Assembly (NCBI GenBank): GCA_034670405.1
Contig: JAXDDX010000010.1
Coordinates: 5,875,001 to 5,939,000 of the forward strand
Source: Hoplostethus atlanticus
Taxonomy: Eukaryota; Chordata; Actinopteri; Trachichthyiformes; Trachichthyidae
Reading direction: 5' to 3'
Length of the DNA: 64,000 bases
A program made the position numbers and the translations under genes. Positions 1-53,896 of the stretch are shown in pieces. Under the pieces are notes generated by a model. That model did not search any database and had not been told where the DNA came from. It saw only the letters and a list, made by a program, of their open reading frames with translations. Within the stretch, counting starts at the first letter, position 1; each line of letters starts with the position of its first letter.

Positions 1-100
1 AGAGAAGAGAGGAGGAAAGAAGGGAGGAGGAGCGAGGAATGAGAGAGAACGGAGAAGAGAGGAGATGGAGAGAGGAGGAGGAGGGAGCAGGAGGTATCAT
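1..100. repeat. Purine-rich GA tract
   Basis: Nearly pure A/G on the + strand, with GAGGAG and GAGAGA units, at the very start of the window. It may extend upstream. Confidence 0.7.
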
Positions 101-537
101 GGGAGCTCTGTCAGCTTGGCTCAGCTGGCTTTCAGCTGTGTTTTAGCTAATGGGTGAATTGGCTGCTCTGCTGACTCTCCTCTGTGGTAATGAACATTGT
201 ACTGTAGTGGGTTCAATTCCTTCCGCCCAAGGGCAGCTGAAGGTCCCGGAGCCCCGTCCTGACAGATGTGATTTAGGGGCCGTGAGATTGAAACGTCAGT
301 AGTAATAGGATACAGCAAAGAAAGAAAAATAGAATAGAAATAAGAACAGGGCAAATGTGAGTTATGTAAAAATACAACTGACAAGTGTGAAATTATATTA
401 AAAAAAGTATCAATATATATAAAATATATAACAAACAAGGAATTTAAGGATATGAAGAAAATGATTTGTCAAAAAAGTGTGGTGGTGAGTTGTGAGTGGT
501 GAGTGGAGATGGCAGGTGCTTTTGTGCTTATATAATG

Positions 538-558
538 GTGTGTGTGTGTGTGTGTGTG
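538..558. repeat. (GT)n microsatellite
   Basis: Uninterrupted GT/TG dinucleotide run of about ten units. Confidence 0.9.
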
Positions 559-679
559 GGCCGACACTTGATTTTAATACCACCTCTAGGAACTGAGCTC
601 TGATTTAGGGGTGTCTTCATGGTGACTGCAGCCATAGGTGCTTTCTGGGTCATGTGACAGCTGGCATCACTGAGATGTA

Positions 680-684
<5 letters not shown>

Positions 685-723
<39 letters not shown>

Positions 724-750
724 GGTGTGTGTGTGTGTGTGTTTGTGTGA
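685..750. repeat. Compound (GA)19 then (GT)n microsatellite
   Basis: A perfect GA run at 685-722 is followed after a C by a GT run. It generates several spurious Ser/Leu- and His/Thr-repeat frames on the minus strand. Confidence 0.95.
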
Positions 751-3239
751 GCATGTGCAGTATGTATGAGAGCGTGTCCAGCTCCTTTGCTCCATCCACA
801 GTAAAGCACAGTGGAAGCCCATTTCCACCGAGAGAGAGGCAGCAATATGATTTGGACCAGTGTTGCAGCTGAGATAAGATCCTGATGCTGCAGCTACAAT
901 CTGATCCTGCCGTTGTGCCAGAGGGCAAAATCCAATTTCCTCTCCACCAAGGAAAAAAAAGCAAAACAAAAAAGCAAAGCAGTTTTTTAATCAGTGATTA
1001 ATGTTTTTGTGGGAGATGACTATTTATCTTTTGCATATTCCAGTAGAAAATGTGTGGCAGCTAATCTATTGTTTCTACTCTTGGTGTGATTTTGGCAGAA
1101 TCATTTTACGATAACGGCTTGGCACATCTTTAACCTGAGTTTTTGTCTCCCCCTGGCCTTCCTCCGCCGGGCCATGTTTGCTTTCTCACAACATGACATT
1201 TTAAGCACAAATTGACTGGCCTTTCCGTATGAGCGAGGCAGCCCGGGCCTCTGAAAGACAGACAAAACACAGTCCCTCAGATAACTGCTCTGTCCTCAAT
1301 TATTAGACTTCTTTGAGCTGAATGTTTCCCTGCGCTGTGCATATCTATCATCTGCTGGAGAAAAGCTCTTCCCACAGTGCCGCTACTGGCCTGTGTCACT
1401 GCTTCACACTGCCCTATGGAAGGGAGAGGAAAAAACTCACTGTGAAGCTATCAAACCAACACATCAGGCCGCCTGCAGCAGAACGTTCTGTTTCAACAGG
1501 CATGTCTGGGTAGCATGAAAGTATTTGGTATTTTTGTAGTAAAAATAGTTAAAGGGATTAGCAGGTAATGCTTACAGTGGTAGTCATTGTACAAGTCCAC
1601 CGTCATGTATTTATCCTGCATCTATACTGCATTAGTACTGTAGATAACTGTTTCTTGAATGTTACACAGTAGAACCAGATTAATATCATTTGTATAACAG
1701 AACACTCTCGTGTCTCTCCATCGGCCCAGACCTTCCATGTAACTTCCAAAACAAGATGATGAAAACAAGGCCAAAAAAATCAGAGCAAAACTCGAATTTG
1801 AACTATTCCTCTGGGGGTACAGCGGTGCAGCAGTAGTTCACCAAGCATGCAGCAGGAAGAGGGACTGCTACAGTTGCTCCAATAGCACGTCGCCCTACTG
1901 TATTTCCCGGCTAGCCAGCTCCTCTTCCTGGCCCCAGAGTCTTAATCCTTCCTCCGCCTGTTGTGTTTCTGCTCCACTGGGGACCAATCGCGCCAATTAC
2001 ACTCGTCGAGCTTGATAATTAGTGACAATTGTAAAAGTAATTTACAAACTCAAGCGATGCCATTGAGCAAATGGTGCCAATTAACTGGAGATGCTAATGT
2101 GGGCAGAAACGCGGAAAAGCAGCATCCGACCTCCATTACAGCGAGAGGAGGAGGGCCAGGAAACTGTCCTCCGCCTGTCAGGGAGAATCGTCCAGGGAGG
2201 AAAACGGAGGCGAAGCACGCTGTCAAGACTGGGCTTGTCACAACGCTGCAGTTTTATCCTACAGTACTGCTGCCGGTCCAAGTATCACGGCTAGGGCAAC
2301 AGCATTTAACGCATTTAGCTCTGCTGTTACACTGAGTGCAACAGTACAATACGCTCTAATTCCTAGATCACCAACATTACACGCAACCAAAATTAAGCAA
2401 CGACAATCATGTCAGAGCGAAAATAAATAGAATAAGAAAGATTTTGAGTAGTGAGGGGAAATCATTCAGTGGGATTAAGTACTTCTTGAAACTTTTTCAC
2501 CCACTGGCCTCTGGATATCAGAGCACATCAGACATTTTCACGTTTTCCAAGCCAAATATGTTCAGATGGAAAAGAGCCTCTAGTTGAAGGTTGGTTGCCT
2601 CTCTGGCTGGTCTGGTGTCTGTCGTATGTGTCCGGTAAACTAGACCAACACAGCCACAATTCAACACTTGGCTGCATTGCATCATTTCAGATACATTTTT
2701 CTGTAATTGCTGCCAGTATAAGCAACATGTAGCTCTATATAACATAATACCTATAGATGAAGCCATAACACAATCTCTGGTATCCCATGCACTGCAAGTA
2801 GTTGGTTTCACGATCCTTTATTAGTACTGAAATATTGCGCAACCCTACAGAGGACTAGTGGACAATTAGTGCTGCTGTAAGTTGACTGAACACCTTCACC
2901 CCCACTAAGAAGAGGACTATTAGGTTACATTGTCACGTGTTAGGGAATGTGAACAAAGCATAACTCATGATAATGTTTTTAATCTTGGTGATAAAAGACC
3001 CTGTTCTTATGAAATAATGAATCCTTGCAGGCTCTAGGCTCCTTCCTTTAATTAATCAAGTTAAATAGCCTGAAAAGGGAAAATAAAAGTCATCATTTGG
3101 TGCCAAAGTTCACCATCTGCAGCAGGGGGTCTTGAGATGCTTGAAAACTACTGCTATGCAATATGAAGGTTAAATGAAGTCCATAAGTTATATAATACTG
3201 TTTTACTCTTTTTAAGCTTTACTTCTCCAGGATGGTTGA

Positions 3240-3430
3240 CTGAGCTTCATGCTGTTTTCATGTCCCACCTGGGAGCTGCTCCAATAAAGCAACGGGGGGT
3301 TAAGTGCCTTGCTCAAGGGCCCCTGAGCAGTAGCCGTTGAGGGAGGGTACAGCATTTCCCCATCCAGAGTCCCCCTGCTTGCACACAGATTGTCCCTTCC
3401 CTGCCTGGGATTCAAGCCAAGGCCCCTCCA
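3240..3430. repeat. Fish dispersed repeat (GGTTAAGTGCCTTGCTCAAG type)
   Basis: It carries the GGTTAAGTGCCTTGCTC motif followed by GTTGAGGGAGGG. A second copy with the same order of motifs lies at 56940-57070. The family is widespread in teleosts, to my knowledge, as a SINE/LINE-tail type repeat. Exact class not determined. Confidence 0.6.
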
Positions 3431-3781
3431 GTCACAAGCCTTCTAGGCCACTGTGGGCCGACTGCTCCCTGTGGTTTCAGCATAACCCTTTCACTCCATA
3501 AATAAAGAGATCGGGAGGATCACTGGTGTGTGGGAACATATATATAGATGACATGGGCAGATTAAATGTACAGTGTATTTATGTTTTAGCATGAGAATGT
3601 CTGGAAGAGGCTCCGTATTTGAAGTCAAGGCCATGCTGTCTCATTACGAGGAGTGTAATTGTTGCTCGGTTCAGTGCTTCCAGCTCTCCCAACCTGAAGA
3701 AGAGTCAGTAATCTGACTAATCCACTGTGAGCAGGAGGGAGCCTCCTGGTTAATGGTACAGTTTGCCCTCTGTAAAAACCA

Positions 3782-3910
3782 GAGTCTCCTCTCCTCTCCA
3801 CTTATTACCTCCTTTCCTCTCCTGTCCTCTCCCGCCCTCTCGTCTCCTCTCCGCTCATTTCCTCTCCTCCTCTCCCATCCTCTCCTCTCCCTTTATCTCT
3901 TCCTCTCCAG
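3782..3910. repeat. Homopyrimidine (CTCCT)n tract
   Basis: Almost pure C/T on the + strand, with repeated TCCTC units. It is a potential triplex-forming tract and the source of a spurious Ser/Pro/Leu-rich frame. Confidence 0.85.
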
Positions 3911-4365
3911 GATTAAAAAACAGGAGGTGTATTCTCATTCTGTCAGTCAAAGCCATTCTGCCTCCCAGGCCTCTGCTTCTATCAGTGTAAACAGAAGGGG
4001 GGATGCAGTGCTTGGTGTTTTCGCTCGTCTAAAACCCCCATTTTGGTGTCTCTTTGATCCGGGGTGCTGGAATAGTAATTGCTATCACTTATGGAACAAA
4101 ATGACAAGCACTGCCAACAGCTTAGCAGCGCAAATACAAAAGAAGAGAGAACTGAGAGTTGTGGTGATAGATTGCTGTGAAAAAGAGTTGATGCAGTCAG
4201 CTTGGGCACAGGGAGGGGGACCTGGGACGAGGGATCATTTTGGTTGATTTTGGCAGGATCACGAGATGATGGTGAAACAAATGTATTTATTTTAGACAAA
4301 TGAATCTATCATTCTTCTAAAGTGGTAATCCACAAGATCCGTGTTTTTTTTTTTTTTTAAATTAA

Positions 4366-4575
4366 AAGTTTTGGCTGTTGGTGTTTCTGCACTGCTCTTC
4401 CCAGAGATGATCAAACTGTGTCCAGTACTGTGCTGGACACACACGAAGCTCACGCTAACTACCCATCCAGTTATTCTATTTATAACTGAAAACCTGCTGT
4501 TGCTGCTGTCTGAAACACATCACGTCCTGTGTGCCAGAGAACTGGATATTGATTGAATAACTATTGTGTTTTGTT
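4366..4575 (+). repeat. Dispersed repeat copy 1 (partner at 32583)
   Basis: It shares ordered blocks with 32583-32855: a TTGGTGTTTCTGCAC-like start, CTAACTACCCA followed by TTCTATT, and an end with GAATAACTATTGTGTT. Similarity is interrupted by indels, as expected for an old interspersed element. Class unknown. Confidence 0.6.
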
Positions 4576-6529
4576 CATCGAGCAGAACAGACGTTTTATT
4601 TATTAATAGATGTTGTACAGTATTTCTTTAATGCCTGCAGTGTGAATGGAAGCTGCCATTTGAAATGAAAAATCTAGCCTAGATTCATGTATTTTTTTGC
4701 TGTCAGAAACGGGGGCACAGACACTCATATCTTCACACTTACTGTATTGTGCACAACATGTTCCAGTCTGGCTTCCCTGTTGCGTCTGTCGGTGGAGCAG
4801 TAATCACAGTAACCTGGAGCCGGCCTCGGCACCGAGCCCGTAAGGGAGCGTAGAAAGTCTATCTTAGAAGAAACCCCTCCAGAGCTGCATTCAGGGGAAG
4901 AGCAGGGGGCTCGTAACGCCTCCCGGGAGCCGAGGACTAGCCTTTCTGGCTTGCATTAAATGGACGTGACCACACCGGTGACGGCTGGATGGTGGTTATT
5001 GAAACGGCATTGAGAAAGAGAGAGAGGAGCCGCATGCCTCCTCTTCCCTCCATAAAGCCTTGGAAGTGGATAAGCCGCTGGCGTTATTCACAGGCTCCTC
5101 CTGACATCGCCTGTTGATGTTTATTTAAATGGAGCTTAGATCGGTGTGGAAATCGGCCCGGTGCGAACGCCCAGCAGGACACAAAACAGCTGGGCTCTGG
5201 AAGGGAAACGGAGAGCGAGAGGTATTTTTTTGAAAGGATAGGGGAAAAGGAGAAAAACTTGGGGTTTCATGTCGGAAGGGATTTGTGTGAAATGTATTTT
5301 GTGTAATGAGACGCCCCATTTCTGCTCTCTGAAATAGTATTACCTGGAGCTGGAAAATAAAAATCTCTCATTGTGCCCGTCCCCTATGGAGCCGGCTGTT
5401 TCCCCGGCTCTCTCCGCCATTTCACAAAAACACTCCGGCTCTTTGTTCTCCCAGAATTTTTTTGTGACACCGCTGAGCCAAGGTGGCGGTCGGTCGTCAG
5501 AAGAGGGTGTCATTTCAGAGCTCCCAGCTGTGAGATTGCTCCTTCTTCCAGGACATTCTGACACGGAGCGCTAATAACGTAAGCTTTCCATTCACGGTAC
5601 ACACAAACACTGCAGTCCACTCCATTGCCCATCACTGGTAATGTCCATTCACAGTAACTGCTGCTTTGACTGGAGAGACGTCTTTGCCGGTGTGTTTCTC
5701 CAGGCTTAACGGGGGGGGGGCTTGCTGCCTTTGTTCCCAAGGTGCTGGACTCCCATTTTGTCCTCACAACATCAACCCACTGTTTTCCGAGTGCGATGAG
5801 CATCATTTGACAGCCGCTTGCCTCAGCATCCTCGGCATTCGAGGCCATTTACACTCAGCTCATTCGCATTATTGCCATTCAGCGATGGCAGTGTTTGCCG
5901 AGGGATCGGGGGAGTTTAATTGGCTGCATTAGTTGGTTTGCCTCCTTTCTTTTTTTCTTGGGACCCTCCAGTCACAGTAAGGCAGATAAGGCGACCTACA
6001 TTTTAGTTTTGCTTTCTTTCAACTTGATTCAATGCTACCGGTCTCTGTCATGTCGTACTTAGCTTTCTCTGAAGCGTCCCAGTTCATCTCTCCCATCTCC
6101 TCACAAAAGAAGCTTTGGGTGTTTGACTTGTGGAGAATTCAGACAGTGGGGTTTCATCAAGGTTTATATGAAATCCACAGTTCTGTGTGTTTACATTGAC
6201 GTGGATATATTCACACAGGCTGGTGGGAAAGCTAAATTTAGCATCCCCATTCCTATGCAGATGACACTTGATTGACAGCCCACTGTGGGTAATGATGTGT
6301 TCAGGTTTAGAAAGTGTCGCCCACAGTAGTCGCCTTAGGTGCATTTTGATGTTTGTTTTGTTTGAAACGTCTGTGCGCGCTCGTACATCCAGTATGACAT
6401 CCTGCAGTGTGTTTGGGCAGGATGAAGCTTCCACCTGAAGGAAGGCAGCACCACTTCACAGGCTTCACCTGTGAGGGTGTGGGAAGTCTGGAAGTGTTTG
6501 AAGAATTAATTTGATAATTCAAATCAAGG

Positions 6530-7035
6530 TTGCAAAAAGTTTGGGAATAAACTGTCAGGCAAACAGGCTGGGACTCACACAGAGAAGAACAGACACGCTA
6601 GAAGTTCAACTCCAATTTATTAGTGTGAGATCCAAAACGTAGTCAAGACAGTCCAGGTCAATACCGAACAGGCAACAGGGCTTTTTTGCCTGCTGCTAAC
6701 AGCAAGCAAAAACGTCAGGAGAAAGCAGGCCGGAGTCGAGAGCAGGCAGACAGGATCAGTAGGCAGGCTAAAGGCTGGTCAGAAAACAGGTTCAAAACCA
6801 GGTCGGGAAATAACAGGACTGATACGCAGGCTATTACGTCTAGGCAAGCTAAAACATTCTGGCAGAGAATTACAGGAACAGGTCTCTACTTATACTAAAT
6901 GCTGATTACAGATTGCATTCAGGTGGGAGGCTGGACTTGAGTGAATCCTCTGATAGGCTGGGCAGGAACAGGTGACAAGCAGGAGGGGAAACCAGGTTGG
7001 TGGGCGGCGACAGGGAGACAGGGAGGAAGAACTGC
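6530..7035. repeat. CAGG-rich interspersed-repeat-like sequence
   Basis: The sequence is full of CAGGC, AACAGG and AGGAACAGGTGACAAGC-like words, a composition typical of a common fish DNA-transposon-derived repeat. No second copy in the window defines its ends, so this is pattern recognition only. The 70-residue frame inside it is not a gene. Confidence 0.35.
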
Positions 7036-7309
7036 TGCCAGGATCCAGGACATAAACTGTTGATCAGTCCCATATCCACACATTTTATGTAGTAGAAGAC
7101 CCACTGTCATTTTCTGTCATTTTCTGGGGTATTGAACTAGGATCTGTGTTTGTGGAGAAGAATTGACATTGACATTCATATTACCCAGTTGACCAACACT
7201 GACCAATATCCTCAAATAGACAAATAGGGTCCATGAGCAAGACACTACCAGAATCCCTACCAGACCTCTGACCTCCAACCTGGGGGAAAAGAAAACAACT
7301 TTGCTGCAG

Positions 7310-7810
7310 GAAGGAATAGAGGATTATACAGAAGAAGGTTCTATACAGTACCTGAAAATGGTTCTATTGGCTCGTACCTTAGTAGAACCTATAATATCTC
7401 ATATTTGGACCAACCTACCAGAGGACCAGTTACCTTTTCACAATCTCAAGTAATAATTGTATTTTTGTTATAATTGATTTCTTACACAAGTTTTAATTTT
7501 GGTATTTATTATTGTTGTATTATTATTGTTCTTGTCTCCTGTCGAACTCACTCACCAGTCGACTCACCTATAGCACTTTCACCCACATGCAGGTTAAAAG
7601 GACCCGGCTGAAACTGGCCTTAATTGGCCGAAGCCGGTGCTGGACACAGGAAGAACCAGCCCACTGGCTCAACTCTCTCCTGCATCCAGCCTACCCCTCA
7701 CCCACACCCTCCCAGTCTGCCACAGTGGACTCTTAAAAAGATAAACTATCATTTTAGAAAGGTTCTATATATTCTATAGGTTCTATATAGGTTCTCAGGA
7801 TATTATAACA
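7310..7810. repeat. GGTTCTATA-rich MITE-like sequence
   Basis: AGGTTCTATA and its complement TAGAACC recur at about 7316, 7360, 7384, 7758, 7778 and 7789, as in fish hAT-type non-autonomous elements. A full pair of terminal repeats was not resolved. The middle holds an unrecognised 74-codon frame. Confidence 0.4.
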
Positions 7811-7875
7811 ATCACTCGGCAGGGAACCGCAGAACCACCACCACCACCTACTCTAGATGTTAGTGTGTGAGAGAG

Positions 7876-8016
7876 TTTACCCTGCTATCTAATGCCTGCA
7901 TGCCTAGCATCTTCCTAATACCTCCCTGCCATCACTCTAGCATTAACCTAACAATGACCTAACATCATCACGACAATACAGCCTGCCTGTAGAATACAAC
8001 AGTACAATTACATTGT
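7876..8016 (-). repeat. Retroelement-family fragment, copy 1, first part (partner at 41057)
   Basis: The words CCCTGCTAT, AATGCCTGCATGCC and the stretch to CACTCTAGC match 41057-41140 nearly exactly. It is the start of a copy that resumes at 9254. The gap is filled by GT arrays and the 880-bp LTR-like insertion. Confidence 0.65.
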
Positions 8017-8064
8017 CAGAGTAGAGAAAGAGTGTGTGTGTCTGTACGGTGGGTACAGTCCCTG

Positions 8065-8099
8065 GTGTGTGTGTGTGTGTGTGTGTGAGTGAGGGGGGT

Positions 8100-8141
<42 letters not shown>
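8065..8141. repeat. Two (GT)n microsatellites
   Basis: GT runs at 8065-8088 and 8104-8141 are separated by a G-rich spacer. Confidence 0.95.
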
Positions 8142-8142
<1 letters not shown>

Positions 8143-8305
8143 ATATGTATGAGCATATGCTGATGGGAACCCTGGATATGATAAAAACCTGTCAACCATG
8201 CACAAACTATTTATGCAGCAACATGCTACCAACAATACTACAGACATGCCAGTGAAACACTACCAGACAAGTGATCATTGAAAGTTAACTAGTGTCAGCT
8301 GCTAG

Positions 8306-9185
8306 TGTAACAGACTTGTTTAGGTTACAAAGGACGACTCAATAAAGTTGTTCTCCTCTCAGCTTTTATTCTGTAGAAGACAATACCAAACAGTCAATTG
8401 GCTTCTTTTCCCCTTTTTCTCTCATACACCCTCTACAATGTAAACGGCACTGTCTTTAGACAGACAGGGGGGAAGCTACCAAAACTGACAGTAAAACATT
8501 CAACCTAAATTATGAAAACAGAGAAAACAGTGACACCTGGTGAGCAAAGTAAAATGGCGCGTGGGGTAGGGTGACTAAACAGAGACAACGAAAATATATA
8601 ATTTAACAAAGGGAAACACATACCTGTAGAAGACAATACCAAACAGTCAATTGGCTTCTTTTCCCCTTTTTCTCTCATACACCTGTTCCGACACATGCAA
8701 CATAAAAGGATTAAACTAAATAATGATGCTAGCATAGTCTGCAGCGCTACATTAGCCACATAACAGGGCAGCGCGCCATAATACAAATGGCGCTAAAAAA
8801 ATAGTAAAATAAAGACATCTGCAAAACTTATATTAGCGGTCAGAACCAAAACAAAACTACTGGGTAACGTAACAGTATCAACATTAAACAATATGCACCA
8901 AAGGTTTACAACATAAATGGTTCAATTTCCAAAGAAAACAATAAAATAGCGCAGCAGCGTTTCCACACAACTTACCCTCTACAATGTAAACGGCACTGTG
9001 AGAGGCAGACGGGGGGAAGCCACGGAAACCCCGGAAGTATAGAAGGGAAGCACGACGTTCAAGAAAGTAATTTTTATAGAAAACAATAAAAATAACAGTA
9101 AATAAGGATAACACATAAAGATAAAATTCACAAACATAAATTGAAAATAAGAATTATTAAAAGGTGCATTTTTAACTCCGTTACA
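8306..9185 (-). mobile_element. 880-bp LTR-like element (TG...CA, CTAG target duplication) containing a mini transcription unit
   Basis: The element starts TGTAAC and ends GTTACA. It is flanked on both sides by CTAG (8302-8305 and 9186-9189), read as a 4-bp target duplication. It splits an older repeat copy (7876-8016 and 9254-9590). On the minus strand it has a TATAAAA box (9078-9071), a likely start near 9048, a GTAAGT donor at 8975, an AG acceptor before 8682, a GTATGT donor at 8623, and AATAAA at 8370-8365. The structure fits a solo LTR or small non-autonomous element. Family not recognised and no protein seen. Confidence 0.6.
8371..8500 (-). repeat. Intron-less copy of two exon-like segments inside the LTR-like element
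   Basis: Positions 8371-8429 are identical over 59 bp to 8624-8682, and 8430-8453 are identical over 24 bp to 8976-8999, with weaker similarity continuing to about 8485-8500. In the source copy these two blocks are separated by 293 bp that start GT and end AG on the minus strand. Here they are fused exactly at those boundaries. See findings. Confidence 0.85.
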
Positions 9186-9253
9186 CTAGCAAATTAATAT
9201 AACTGCTATTGTTGGTAAACTAATATAACCAAACTAACTATATATCATCTACA

Positions 9254-9590
9254 GCATCCTCACATGCATCCTCCTGTAAGCTCCACAAAGTACACACTCC
9301 ACCTCCCCTCTGACCACGGCACCAAGTCTCGTCTTATACTCCTGCTTGCCATTTCCTGTGGGAATATTAGCCGTTTGCCCAGATCTACAGCCATTTTCCA
9401 ATCGCTGCCCACCCTTAGCTGTCCTAAGATATGCCTGCCCACAAATGCTTCACTACTACTTGAACTCTCTCCCTCCAGAACAAAACTAATTTTATTATCT
9501 GCTTTCCTGTCAGCTAAAGAATTAATTTCCAACAGCTTACTCTGAATCGCTGCCGGCAGACACCTTAACACTCGATTATGCCACCATGTG
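9254..9590 (-). pseudogene. Non-LTR retrotransposon-like 3' ORF fragment, copy 1
   Basis: The minus-strand frame 9667-9260 contains LSQGRYTWWHNRVLR and RDLVPWSEGRWSVYFVELT. These are words I associate with the C-terminal part of fish reverse-transcriptase-type retroelement proteins (consensus style LSQGRYTWRHN... and VELTVPWE). There is no complete reverse transcriptase. A second, frameshifted copy lies at 41241-41570, and the first 110 bp of the two are identical. Family assignment is tentative. Confidence 0.5.
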
Positions 9591-11145
9591 TACCGCCCTT
9601 GGGAAAGACTTGTTTTACACCCTGAGTGTACCGATGCCTGAATACAAAAGACGGGCAGCGTCCTCACCTACCCACTGCGATGGTAGTACATCACAGGTTG
9701 CACCTATAATGAATTTAATGCAATGAATTTATGGTTGACTTCCATACCTCGCCGCTCCCTCCAGCCAAGTTTCCTCCTCTCTACACTTTCCCAATTCATC
9801 CACTGACCCTGCTTCGCCTAAGAAGCTGCCCTAGCACACCTCACTGCTTCCTGCTGTCCATGTATCTGCTCCATAATCATCTCCCTCCTCCCTGTTGGAG
9901 AAGCCCTACTGCATAAAGGTTGCTCCATGCCAAGCCCTAAACCTGCCCGCCCTTGTTGTACCTGCCCTACAATTTCCTGTGTCTGTGTGGCCTGTGCCTG
10001 TTGAGCTGCCTCTCTGGGCTTCCATTTACAATAAATATATTTACTGAATTGAACTTAGTTCTATTTGAGTCAATTATATAAATATTTCTAGTTCTTTCTG
10101 ATTTACCAGTTGTTGTTTTATTATCTTTGAGTTATTACGTTTCCATATAGAGCCACTTCCCCAACCAAAGAACCCTTGAGGAGCCCTCCTTCCTCCGGGT
10201 GTGGTAGAGGGTAATCTCCTTGGGTACAGGTACAAATGAAGGGCCGTTGATGTTACAGCTAACCTTGGCTGTACGCCCTGCATGGCTGCCCCTGTGAGCC
10301 ATCAGTCTGCTGGGAGTCTGACTGAAATATTAAAGAGCCTGTCCCCTCGCCTGCTGTAGCACCACGCTGAGTAGCAACCAGTGTGTATACTGTGGTGTAA
10401 TGTAGGTGCAGTATATATGTGATGATGAAACGATGCTATGAGATTATTCTCCGTTCAATTCCCACTTCTGTTACCGTCAGTCTTTTGGCACAGGACAGCA
10501 GGGATGGAAGAAAGTCTGTCTGCCTGTCTGTAGCCATATTTGTCCACCCATCCGTTTATGGCAGGAATGGCAGGAAAAAGACCGTACTTAAAAAATTGTG
10601 AAATTATAAATCTATCCCTTTTATTGTGAAAAGTACGCCTTTGCAGCTGTAAAAACAAGATGGAAGTCGCCTCTCCCTGCTGTACATCATCTCTCAGCAC
10701 ACCATGTCCCATAAGTGTCAGCTCTGACCGTGCTCATGCATTTGTATTGGCTGATATGTGGCCTGCAGAATAGCAGCCAAGTCATTTCAAGTCATATAAA
10801 CATCACAGGCCACAAAAAGACACTGTGCCTTGACTTATTTGGATCATTCAGTGCCTTGTTGTTTTTTTTACCTATGCACAGAGAAATGTACATCTGTTTT
10901 CATCCCGACATGAACCACTCAGGATAGGTTTCCAAAGGCCCTTTATGGTTGCATTATGCTGCAAGCAGTCCCGTCCCACTGTGCTCTCTCTACAGCAGGT
11001 ACAATACTAGCAATGATGCACAGTGCATACAGTAGATGACATTAGGCAGGAGAGCGTGAAGGTTGATTTGTGCTCGTGAGTCTCGGCTAGATGTCTAATT
11101 ACACCCCCCCAGCACCAATCCCACCAACCCCACACAAACCCCCCC

Positions 11146-16010: not shown

Positions 16011-16723
16011 CTGGAGTAACACGGAGGGTTGTCAGCTGAAGTAACCTGTTAGCTGGAATAACAGAGTAACATGGAGGGATGTCAGCTGAAGTAACCTGTT
16101 AGCTGGAGTAACAGAGTAACCTGTTAGCTGGAGTAACAGAGTAACATGGAGGGATGTCAGCTGAAGTAACCTGTTAGCTGGAGTAACAGAGTAACACGGA
16201 GGGATGTCAGCTGAAGTAACCTGTTAGCTGGAGTAACAGAGTAACAAGGTGTCAGCTGAAGTAACCTGTTAGCTGGAGTAACAGAGTAACAAGGTGTCAG
16301 CTGAAGTAACCTGTTAGCTGGAGTAACAGAGTAACACGGTGTCAGCTGAAGTAACCTGTTAGCTGGAGTAACAGAGTAACATGGAGGGATGTCAGCTGAA
16401 GTAACCTGTTAGCTGGAGTAACAGAGTAACATGGAGGGATGTCAGCTGAAGTAACCTGTTAGCTGGAGTAACAGAGTAACCTGTTAGCTGGAGTAACAGA
16501 GTAACACGGAGGGATGTCAGCTGAAGTAACCTGTTAGCTGGAGTAACAGAGTAACATGGAGGGGTGTCAGCTGAAGTAACCTGTTAGCTGGAGTAACAGA
16601 GTAACATGGAGGGGTGTCAGCTGAAGTAACCTGTTAGCTGGAGTAACAGAGTAACATGGAGGGATGTCAGCTGAAGTAACCTGTTAGCTGGAGTAACAGA
16701 GTAACACGGAGGGGTGTCAGCTG
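16011..16723. repeat. 50-bp minisatellite, 15 copies, 713 bp
   Basis: Fifteen occurrences of CTGTTAGCTGGA with unit lengths of 50 bp (full), 45 bp (lacking GAGGGAT-type bases, three in a row at 16240-16375) and 25 bp (two, at 16120 and 16480). Each full unit contains GTCAGCTGAAG, an E-box-like CAGCTG. Units differ at only one to three positions (ATGG/ACGG, GGGATG/GGGGTG), so homogenisation is recent. It has no coding frame. Confidence 0.95.
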
Positions 16724-17300
16724 TGTGATCTGGCTCTGCACATCATCTTCAAAAGACGGCACACGTCAGTGATCTAAGCCCTTTCCATGAGGAAGCGCTG
16801 GATGCACTGGCCGTCTGTAAAGCTCAGCACATTTAAATGATTTCTTGGCTCCCTCTGTGCAACCTGGTAGTGCAGTCGCCTTTGATGATCCCTCAAAAAT
16901 TCAATCAACTTGTGTGTGAGATGTGTATGAGTGCGGGAATAAGGCGAGAGAGGAAGCTGTCTGTGCGTAAAAGTGCATTCCAAGCATTCAGTGCATTTGG
17001 TGGACTGAGATCATTCTTATTTTTTATTGTTTAGTTCATTTTCATGATACTGGTTATTGCTTCATGTTTTGCGACTCAACAATTCATGTCCTACTTGATG
17101 TCTTTGGTGTTTATTAGTATGCAGATTTATTGTTTATCATGAAACCAGTGGGAGTGCTGACATATTGCAGGGTTTTGGGAAAGGGTATTATTCATCACCT
17201 CACAGTCTTGCCTTGCAGGAGGCCAATACCCGTAGTAATTCCACAGTTGGTATTGACAGAGTCTAAAAACCAACGTAAAGCGAGACCGTACAGTGCTTAA

Positions 17301-17943
17301 AGGGGAATTCCGGTATTTTTAAACTTGGGCTCGATTTGTACAAATTCGTCATTTATACCGCAAAAAAGCTACAAAAAGATTTGGAATTGCTCCTGTAGAT
17401 CGCCTCAGTCGGCAGTCGCAAAACGGGCTGCTATGGCTGTAACATAATCTTTTGGGGCAAGTGCACCGATCAAAGTACGTCCACTAAAAGTGCTTGTTTT
17501 TGCCACTGACAGGCTCAGATTGTTATTCGTGTGTGTCTGACAACATTACGGAAAGGATCGCTACAGAGATAGACCTTTTTTTAACCAGAAACCTTTGTTT
17601 AACCTCTTCCTGCAACAACTCACCTCATCTTTCAGATTTCAGAGTGAGACTTCTCCTTGAGCGAGACTTCTGTTTCTGGTTAAAAAGAGGTCTATCTCTG
17701 TAGCGATCCTTTCCGTAATGTTGTCAGACACTTGTCAGACACACTAATAACAATCTGAGCCTGTCAGTGGTAAAAACAAGCACTTGCCCCAACAGATTAC
17801 GTTGCAGCCATAGCAGCCGGTTTCGGGACTGCCGACTGAGGCGATCTACCGGAGTAATTCCAAAACCTTTTGTACCTATTTTGCGGTATAAATGACAAAT
17901 TTGTACACATAGAGCCCAGGTTTAAAAATACCGGAATTCCCCT
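17301..17943. mobile_element. Foldback/MITE element, 643 bp, TTAA target sites
   Basis: The left arm (17301-17600) and right arm (17645-17943) are inverted copies of each other over about 300 bp, with only about 45 bp between them. The ends are AGGGGAATTCCGGTATTTTT and its complement. TTAA flanks both ends (17297-17300 and 17944-17947), as for piggyBac-type insertions. No transposase is present. Confidence 0.85.
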
Positions 17944-20064
17944 TTAAGTCGAGGTCTGAATCGAGCCCTATGGGAATTATCAGCACCGTTGAAATGGGTC
18001 TTTGACCAGTCAGATTGCTTGGTTGAAATTACCCGTTGTATGAACCACATTATTATTGTGAAAGTTGTGGAGTGGATGGGAGGTAAAAAGAAAGGAAATG
18101 GAGGAAAGTTGTCTCATTTCATTTTTCACTTTTCTTGAATAAATCAAAGTTGGTTTAATAGAGAGGAACTTTGCTCTCAGATAGGCGTTCCAGGGGAAAT
18201 GTGCTGTCCTGAATCCCATTCAGAGCGCAGGCAGTGTCTGAGATGATAAAAACCCTCTCAGAGACCGTTGGGCCTTTTCATCACTCAGGTAACGTAAATG
18301 CAATTTTTAGAGTTTTCTCAAGTCAAGAAGCCCAATCTCCCTTCACTCTTCAGAAAAGGTTTTGCAGTTTTTTAGCGCTGAGAAATGTGGTTTGGAGAGA
18401 GGCCATCGATCTGGCTCTGGCATATGATCAGATGAGCTTTTATTGCATTTCATGTTGTATTAAAAGGCAGACCATAATACTAGGATCGTTTGAGGTATCT
18501 TTCTCCATTCTATAAAGACTTTTACCCATGATTCATCATGACACTCAGTGGGATGATTTTATTTCAGGTGACCAAATATGTCCTGACTTTTGAAGTGGGA
18601 TTCTCTAGTGTACAGCACAATATAAACTTCTTTGGAAGCAGAAGTTTCGAGCGGCGTGCCCGTCGTCCCCAGCAGTTGCTATGTTGTGGCTTGGTGAAAA
18701 TACAAACTTTGAAAGTAAGCCGGCTGCGGTGCACATCCCTACGATAACGCAGCCGTCGAGGTAGGATATCCCTGCATACTTGCAAGCAACACGCTCACAA
18801 GCACAAACCATGCATCAGAATTCCTGCTCACGTGTCATGTTGTCATTTCTGCCTCCTGTATTCCTGTTTGAAGCTGCGGTTGAACTATCTGCAGCGGCTG
18901 AGGGGCTATAATTTGATATGACTGGATCTAGATTATTATTTACCGTGTTGTCAAGGTGAGGGAGAGACTCAACTTTGTGCGTAAATAGATTCGCTGTCAC
19001 TGCTCCAGTAAATCAGCAGCTGTTGACCCACAACTCTTGCTTCCTTCCCTCACTCTCTCCCTCCATCCCTCCCCCCTATGAAGATTGTGGCTGTCAGAGC
19101 ACTGTGTTGATTTTGACACACTAATGATAGGACAGGATCCTGGATTGCCTTGTCTGACAGTAAAACATGTCCTGTCAGGGGCTTCTCTGAAGTTTGATTA
19201 AAGAAAGCGACTGACTAAAGTACATGCCGGCTAATGAGAGGGATGTGATGTTGTGACACACAGGACCTCAACACCCATGATTCAGACTGACCTAATAAAA
19301 TCACTGCACTGACTACCTTTATTGATAATGCTTGAAGCTTATATTGGTATTTTGATTGGGTGAGTATTGTTTTATTTGAGACTAAAATATGAATAAATGG
19401 ATGCATGTATAGATAGATGAATGAACCAACAAAGAAACAAATGATTGAATGACGGATGTGTAATACTACATATGTAGCCTATTCTACTTTGGATTGTAAA
19501 GCACAGCTTGACAAATTCAATCTATGGGTTTGGCTTATGGTGCAGAAAGCATAGGCCCTACCCCCTTAAAACAGCAAATGTATACATCCACTGTACATAT
19601 ACAGATATGTATCAAATAGATCTGCTTAGTGTACATATGTGTATGTGCATGTAAGAAAATCCACACTTATACTCTGGTGAGGTTATAGTTTAAATAAAAT
19701 AAAGCATTTACATGGTTGGAAGTAATGCAGTTTCCCCTAACAACCAGTCAGGTTAGTCAGCTTGCTGCCATCTCCACATCAGGCCAAAAACGTTGCAACA
19801 TTTTGTCGGATTTGTGTGATGCTCTTGCAGAACACCTAGATGCAGGCAGTGTTCTTGTCAGTGTCAGCTGAAACAAGCAGATCCATAAATGTGTTCACGC
19901 AACACATGAACCTGGCCTTACAGATCATTCATATTGTATTTAATTGATGACATTTTAATATCAATCAACAGTAAAACAAGCCTGTAACTGTAACTCCACT
20001 TTTACTCCACTTGTTTTACACTTACACTTGAAAAATAACTGATTTTTCCTCTGTGTCCCTCCAG

Positions 20065-53896
<33,832 letters not shown>

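Follow-up and report, generated by a model that had tools for sequence, protein, structure and literature searches.

The R region of long terminal repeat (LTR) retrotransposons is usually one contiguous stretch. In the intron-containing elements Ogre and EVADE, replication is taken to proceed from unspliced RNA, and the products of spliced human immunodeficiency virus type 1 (HIV-1) RNAs are without genes. The available excerpt of PMC12786077 describes the loss on copying of an intron placed in an LTR retrotransposon as the basis of a classic assay, and assigns the introns of Ogre and EVADE to the production of subgenomic RNAs. According to excerpts of PMC1868081 and PMC3846280, respectively, spliced HIV-1 RNAs are reverse-transcribed with an efficiency like that of genomic RNA, and Penelope-like elements, in contrast to other retrotransposons, can spread genes that contain introns. 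Here we analyzed a 64,000-nt stretch of Hoplostethus atlanticus DNA (assembly GCA_034670405.1, contig JAXDDX010000010.1, positions 5,875,001 to 5,939,000; hereafter, the window), in which an 880-bp unit at 9185..8306, with sense on the minus strand, proves to be the solo LTR of a retrotransposon of Ty3/Gypsy-like type. We consider it likely that this LTR carries its R leader twice, once split and once spliced, that the 5' leader is spliced, and that the first strand transfer rewrites the fused block in each cycle while the introns are kept.

Split and fused leader blocks in a Ty3/Gypsy-like LTR

Read in sense, the long LTR is ordered A, E1, intron 1, E2, intron 2 (with ext' ahead of the fused block), E1c-E2c and B, with the following features in the window:

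9186..9189, no strand: target-site duplication CTAG, upstream side in sense
8306..9185, minus strand: LTR, 880 bp, TGTAAC..GTTACA; LTR pairs of the same family flank the C15, C146 and C429 proviruses
9000..9185, minus strand: segment A, the upstream promoter part of U3, with TATAAAA at 9078-9072 in the window copy
8976..8999, minus strand: E1, first exon, with a putative transcription start at 8999 and donor GAGG then GTAAGT
8683..8975, minus strand: intron 1, GTAAGT..GGAACAG, 293 nt, 9 ATGs
8624..8682, minus strand: E2, second exon, donor CAG then GTATGT
8371..8623, minus strand: putative intron 2, 253 nt, from GTATGT to the CTACAG closing the fused block, which it encloses
8454..8484, minus strand: ext', before the fused block; resembles 9029..9000 and shows no concert with that stretch
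8453..8455, minus strand: highly variable junction, the putative landing point of the first strand transfer
8371..8453, minus strand: fused E1c-E2c, 83 nt, equal to E1 plus E2; its final bases, TTGTCTTCTACAG, are the putative intron 2 acceptor
8306..8370, minus strand: segment B, third exon, with AATAAA at 8370-8365, then U5 to the LTR end
8302..8305, no strand: target-site duplication CTAG, downstream side in sense

Joined end to end, E1 (24 nt) and E2 (59 nt) reproduce the fused block at 8453..8371 in 83 of 83 bases. On the sense strand, E1 (8999..8976) runs into GTAAGT, E2 (8682..8624) runs into GTATGT, intron 1 ends in GGAACAG at 8683, and the fused copy is followed at once by AATAAAAGC. 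The 880-bp LTR contains only two GTRNGT sites, both of them at block edges. The placement of the junction is ambiguous over 3 nt (a shared GGT), with the GT..AG cut among the possible ones, and the blocks start exactly at 8999 and 8453. A preliminary description of the locus had placed all of these junctions correctly to the base, and the weaker extension that it reported is real, comprising up to 28 aligned positions upstream of E1 and of its copy, with a score of 34 that 12 of 5000 shuffles reach in any register.

The same description had proposed a comparison with other copies in the same genome. This recovered both long and short (A-E1-E2-B) forms, and the fused block lies at the same place in all 13 other long insertions (E1 or the fused junction being damaged in C429, C137 and C185), so it is not an effect of assembly or chance. 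Of the 14 long insertions, 13 have GTATGT at donor 2 in both LTRs, and L013 (C429) has a gapped GTAT there; donor 1 is GTAAGT or GTAGGT wherever E1 is intact.

Copies were sought in the assembly of the same species (633 Mb, 1161 contigs), one genome only. The first search gave 42 matching pieces, and two further searches using old copies returned the same places again together with the second half of the C129 copy. Adjacent same-strand pieces were counted as a single split insertion, insertion counts being lower bounds, and C3, C127 and C111, where matches were weak (71-79%, spanning no more than 155 bases in the 5' part of the query), were left out. The count came to at least 22 insertions, three of them proviruses (C handles denote insertions and L handles LTR copies):

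Long insertions, n=14: window C10; proviruses C15, C146, C429; C171, C9, C15:3095381, C173, C126, C267, C243, C100, C137, C185
Short insertions, n=4: C205, C107, C92, C1
Fragments and broken copies, n=4: C12, C129, C424, C627

The LTR ends are TGTAAC..GTTACA, and exact 4-bp target-site duplications (CTAG for the window copy) were found in 14 of the 16 insertions with both outer flanks examined, L018 and L020 not being among them; of the two exceptions, L008 matches at 3 of 4 bases and L019 has none. Direct LTR pairs with TG..CA ends enclose an internal region at C15, C146 and C429. In all three proviruses a primer-binding site (PBS)-like stretch, CTGGTGCCGTGACCC, follows the 5' LTR and a purine-rich tract, AGTGGGGGTGAG, precedes the 3' LTR; the tRNA matching the PBS-like stretch is presumably His-like. 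Within the C15 element, an internal piece of 2.2 kb has an uninterrupted reading frame and carries RVT_1 (1.3e-33) and RNase H in Pfam. The best solved sequences are the Ty3 reverse transcriptase (4ol8, 4e-65) and Ty3-G Gag-Pol (5.4e-64), followed by an 'Enzymatic polyprotein' (2e-41) and a 'Peptidase A9/Reverse transcriptase/RNase H' (1.3e-24), the assignment of both domains to the Ty3 group being by nearest solved relatives. At a Pfam threshold of 0.01 nothing was found for the 410-aa piece after the PBS or the 393-aa piece before the 3' LTR, the integrase stretch lying outside both pieces. The ends, the target duplications, the flanked internal region and the Ty3-nearest reverse transcriptase identify the unit as a solo LTR of a Ty3/Gypsy-like retrotransposon, and since the two C15 LTRs differ at 1 of 879 sites, the family has been recently active. 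Rather than a single contiguous R, the long LTRs hold the leader blocks both split and fused, and the element is for this reason filed as a variant of the Ty3/Gypsy LTR retrotransposons.

Several other identities were rejected. The reverse transcriptase nearest Ty3 argues against an endogenous retrovirus (Retroviridae), for which env was sought only via the 393-aa piece, with no Pfam match. A Penelope-like element is contradicted by the RVT_1 and RNase H domains, for which Ty3 is the closest solved relative, and by LTRs with 4-bp duplications. A processed retrocopy made by a long interspersed element (LINE) would not explain a block that has no tail, stops at a splice site, runs into AATAAAAGC and keeps a constant position in the long copies. 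A DNA transposon might be suggested by inverted ends in the window copy, but these 12 bp are made up of the 6-bp LTR ends, the palindromic CTAG and two chance bases. The open reading frames at 8505-8792 and 8884-9153 that span the blocks have no Pfam match as coding exons, and three RNA-family matches (E up to 1 in 7000-10500) all fall under their own gathering scores. The exact fused junction had 0 matches in viral contigs.

Concerted evolution and the junction before the fused block

Across the 14 long insertions, the average distance between E2 and E2c is 0.5 events when both come from one copy and 7.8 when they come from different copies, and none of 20,000 permutations reached the observed sum. 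Permutations used one LTR per insertion (second LTRs L004, L014 and L022 dropped), and the fragments L021, L023, L024 and L086 stood outside the concert, column and parsimony counts. The two blocks are exactly equal in 11 of 14 copies, the differences being in L008, L015 and L018. In the column comparison, made over 13 insertions without L018 (truncated E2c), E2 and E2c agree in pattern at 26 of the 31 variable E2 columns, and the other five are private changes of L008 (4) and L015 (1). Indels are likewise common to both blocks (L007, 51 nt; L006, 60; L015, 55; L017, 61). Several versions of E2 exist among the long copies, the fused block of each copy has the matching version, and a tree of the blocks contains no E2 clade opposed to an E2c clade.

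This pattern bears on the possibility that a spliced cDNA recombined only once, into a single ancestor, the 83-nt identity then being recent. The identical fused block of the window copy would fit such an event, but even the diverged L016 and L018 have the arrangement, and in each of them E2 and E2c match in a version of their own; we regard a single event as highly improbable. The preliminary description had suggested reverse transcription of a spliced RNA followed by recombination at its own third exon. As far as the DNA goes, this proposal holds in its substance; it does not hold as a single event at one locus with a separate recombination, given that the unit is an LTR and that the joining is best read as an ordinary first strand transfer, which appears to recur in each replication cycle.

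The concert does not extend upstream of the blocks. Between ext and ext', the mean difference is 8.5 events within and 8.56 between copies, and 8921 of 20,000 permutations gave a sum at or below the observed one (12 insertions, also without L013 and L017). Because E2/E2c and E1/E1c evolve in concert and ext/ext' do not, information in the replicating lineage flows between the fused block and the split exons, bounded by 8999, the splice sites and the E2/B border. Other sequence occupies the ext' position in L016 and L018; ext' may be a relic of an older transfer for which the RNA start was an earlier one.

Parsimony counts over 11 unsplit copies assigned 4 steps to 8455, 2 to 8454 and 1 to 8453, making 8455 the most changed of the 880 sites (189 steps in total), while the counterpart sites at the upstream block, 9000 and 8999, have 0 steps. 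The Poisson chance of 7 steps in 3 sites is about 5e-6, for sites picked on the ground of the model but after seeing the sequences. The base at position -1 of the fused block is G in 11 of 14 insertions and C in 3, and both LTRs of each provirus share the junction state (C15, AAGG; C146, AAAC; C429, TGG). The excerpt of PMC6885630 reports that the first base added on capped RNA by reverse transcriptase of the Moloney murine leukemia virus (MMLV) type is almost always dC, which would read G in sense, as at -1; C is the genomic base at 9000. If the cDNA ends at the RNA cap and its extension then proceeds on the 3' LTR, errors would be expected in each cycle immediately ahead of E1c, and the hypervariability of 8455 is what would be expected where a reverse transcriptase runs off capped RNA.

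A variable junction before E1c would also be the usual U3/R border of an ordinary LTR, in which RNA starts at E1c, R is E1c-E2c-B, and the upstream E1 and E2 are a U3 duplication held alike by selection. The resemblance of ext' to the region before E1 would allow a second start there, and the C429 provirus, without E1 in both LTRs, still has its fused block. Selection, however, does not produce the same indels and substitutions in step, nor edges at splice sites, and an ordinary LTR of this kind is very unlikely.

Three insertions have further peculiarities near the blocks. Both LTRs of the C429 provirus (L013, L014) are without E1 and most of intron 1 and keep E2 and the fused block, which, because neither LTR has E1, cannot derive from the E1 of its own LTR. 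L020 (C267) carries at about 1150 to 3330 an insertion with an 8-bp duplication, GTCTAGAC, at the fused-block junction, with ends that we take to be hAT-like; this copy also looks recombinant, its E1 resembling one subfamily and its E1c another. In L016, 17 nt of the ext/E1 border lie in inverted orientation just ahead of E1 (GCGGCACTGTGAGAGGC), which is what a local template switch would leave.

Proposed replication cycle and its weighing

In the proposed cycle, RNA would start at E1 (8999) in the 5' LTR, and both introns would be spliced from the 5' leader to give E1-E2-B. Intron 2 would run from GTATGT at 8623 to CTACAG at 8371, with TTGTCTTCTACAG closing the exon in E2 and acting as the acceptor in E2c. 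Minus strong-stop cDNA, primed at the PBS, would copy B-E2-E1 up to the cap and pair with E1c-E2c-B at the unspliced 3' end of the RNA, and extension through ext', intron 2, E2, intron 1 and U3 would place the introns and a rewritten fused block in both new LTRs. The introns would survive because what each cycle overwrites, at the first strand transfer, is the fused block of the 3' LTR. Intron 1 contains 9 ATGs and the 170 nt ahead of the fused block 2, compared with 1 in the spliced leader, and fewer ATGs in the leader are a possible benefit of splicing.

Two old copies allowed a comparison of splice acceptors. At the end of intron 1, L021 retains an upstream AG (TTTAG|GAGCAG|ATG), and the fused block of L086, which has the same B start as L021, includes GAGCAG (score 107 vs 85), as use of the upstream AG predicts. 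This AG is lost in all 14 long insertions (CG in 12, TG in C15, and in L007 TCAG, which places an AG one base further on); in the long insertions E2 starts at the downstream AG, and GAGCAG is absent from 13 of 13 surviving fused junctions, that of L018 being lost. A search of the assembly with the L086 tail found no subfamily member beyond C12. The acceptor shift weakly favors the spliced-leader model, as support and not as proof, because neither old copy has both parts and the fused block of L007 ignores its AG.

A number of observations weigh against the proposed cycle. The acceptor comparison uses two broken old copies, and the AG of L007, 5 nt ahead of the usual acceptor (TGTCAGAACAG), is unmirrored in its fused block, although it may have arisen after insertion. 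E1 and E1c match imperfectly, with 1, 3, 5 and 2 differing events in L005, L016, L018 and L020, and the permutations leave E1 a narrow margin, a sum of 11 against a lowest value of 12 in 20,000 (11 insertions, also without L013, L015 and L017, which are deleted or damaged). Donor 1 is the weaker GTAGGT in L005, L006, L007 and L020, yet their E2 blocks match. TATAAAA lies 79 nt upstream of 8999, beyond the usual distance of a TATA box, and is altered in older copies. Among the counted insertions there is no LTR with only intron 1 removed, which splicing of the 3' LTR could yield. Finally, the comparison covers DNA of a single genome, and the start at 8999 is putative; the feature of the LTR itself is real and recurrent. 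The TATAAAA at 9072-9078 is present in the younger LTRs, with TGTAAAA or similar in L008, L013, L015 and L016.

Some of these weaknesses would suit DNA gene conversion, which would keep the blocks alike inside each LTR, splicing having mattered once, at the origin of the fused block. Gene conversion predicts concerted evolution by itself, and a process in which splicing no longer takes part would fit both the thin E1 margin and the lack of a shift in the fused block of L007. It would nevertheless require conversion over 24 and 59 nt to stop precisely at splice sites and at 8999, next to about 28 adjoining homologous bases that show no concert; it predicts neither the highly variable junction nor the GAGCAG case, and private differences persist in L008 and L015. 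We consider it unlikely, if the most credible of the competing explanations.

The short LTRs (331, 320, 353 and 365 bp) are A-E1-E2-B, and the old copy L021 is A (partial)-E1-intron 1-E2-B. In an unrooted tree, L009 groups with the youngest long LTRs (99/97) and L010 lies in a clade of 12 (99/97); L011 and L012 fall near L015, branching outside the main long clade, with a placement that is not sharp. At the ext/E1 border, L010 is changed at -1 (C to G) and L009 at -2, and L011 and L012 are unchanged; changes in 2 of 4 short LTRs at the place where transfer would fall in the short form are suggestive only. Short LTRs may have arisen through splicing of the 3' LTR, through transfer to E1, or by plain recombination between the repeats. 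The lack of an LTR without intron 1 alone is predicted by plain recombination and not by free splicing of the 3' LTR.

These short forms might instead be ancestral, the introns having been inserted later, an alternative that the preliminary description had also raised. Intron gain would be consistent with the presence of A-E1-E2-B LTRs in 4 insertions and, the tree being unrooted, with the position of L011 and L012. It is not favored, and in our view scarcely credible, as both L009 and L010 nest among long LTRs, the former with the youngest ones and the latter in the wider clade, as introns are present in the most divergent copies (L016, L018 and L021), and as the long form consists of two block copies rather than one interrupted copy.

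Within the proposed cycle, we only tentatively suggest that splicing is an obligatory replication step, the strong-stop template always being the spliced leader and the R used for strand transfer depending on the host spliceosome. If so, the element would possess a permanent leader intron, not removable by copying from spliced RNA. The loss of introns is the classic sign of reverse transcription, and an element that passes through spliced RNA and yet has introns would represent a way out, with an intron placed upstream of a second, spliced R that serves strand transfer. Its DNA would keep a readable record of the splice sites and RNA start used in past replication cycles, and plain RNA sequencing could test whether splicing, the 5' cap and the first strand transfer are directly linked.

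Surroundings of the LTR and known systems

The window contains kinase exons at 36388-36918 and 51107-51562, and because the first is nearest the NT-3 growth factor receptor (NTRK3), the window probably lies within an NTRK3-like gene. The LTR sits between the two parts of another repeat that has two copies, 7876-7942 with 9245-9570 and 41055-41121 with 41232-41548 (95.5% and 89.6% alike); the copy at 41055-41548 was rejected as an empty site, there being no alignment across the insertion point. This repeat has a minus-strand frame of 135 aa at 9260-9667, which has no Pfam match. Elsewhere, the window contains a tandem array at 16014-16723, whose period looks to be about 50 bp or less by self-comparison only, a 169-bp inverted repeat at 17296-17464 and 17780-17948 (90.5% alike), and a minus-strand frame of 203 aa at 21803-22414 with an ALKBH8_N Pfam match, presumably the tail of a LINE-type reverse transcriptase.

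Among the matches listed in our literature search, to which subscription papers and repeat databases were external, no LTR with a split and a spliced leader is described; a repeat-database consensus of the same LTR, without the mechanism, may already be on file. The element resembles Ty3/Gypsy retrotransposons (Ty3) in its LTR pair, 4-bp duplications, PBS-like stretch, purine-rich tract and a reverse transcriptase and RNase H nearest Ty3, and differs from them in having R twice per LTR, once split by introns. Penelope-like elements belong to another reverse transcriptase group and have another endonuclease and terminal structure, and we know of none with a split and a fused leader. In contrast to spliced HIV-1 RNAs, only leader sequence would be removed here. 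As in the intron-marked TyH3 reporters described in the excerpt of PMC12786077, an intron inside the element would be spliced out during the life cycle, but new copies of those reporters are intronless, whereas new copies here keep their introns. Ogre and EVADE, in the same excerpt, likewise combine introns and spliced transcripts in an LTR retrotransposon; unlike in those elements, the spliced leader itself seems here to be the template.
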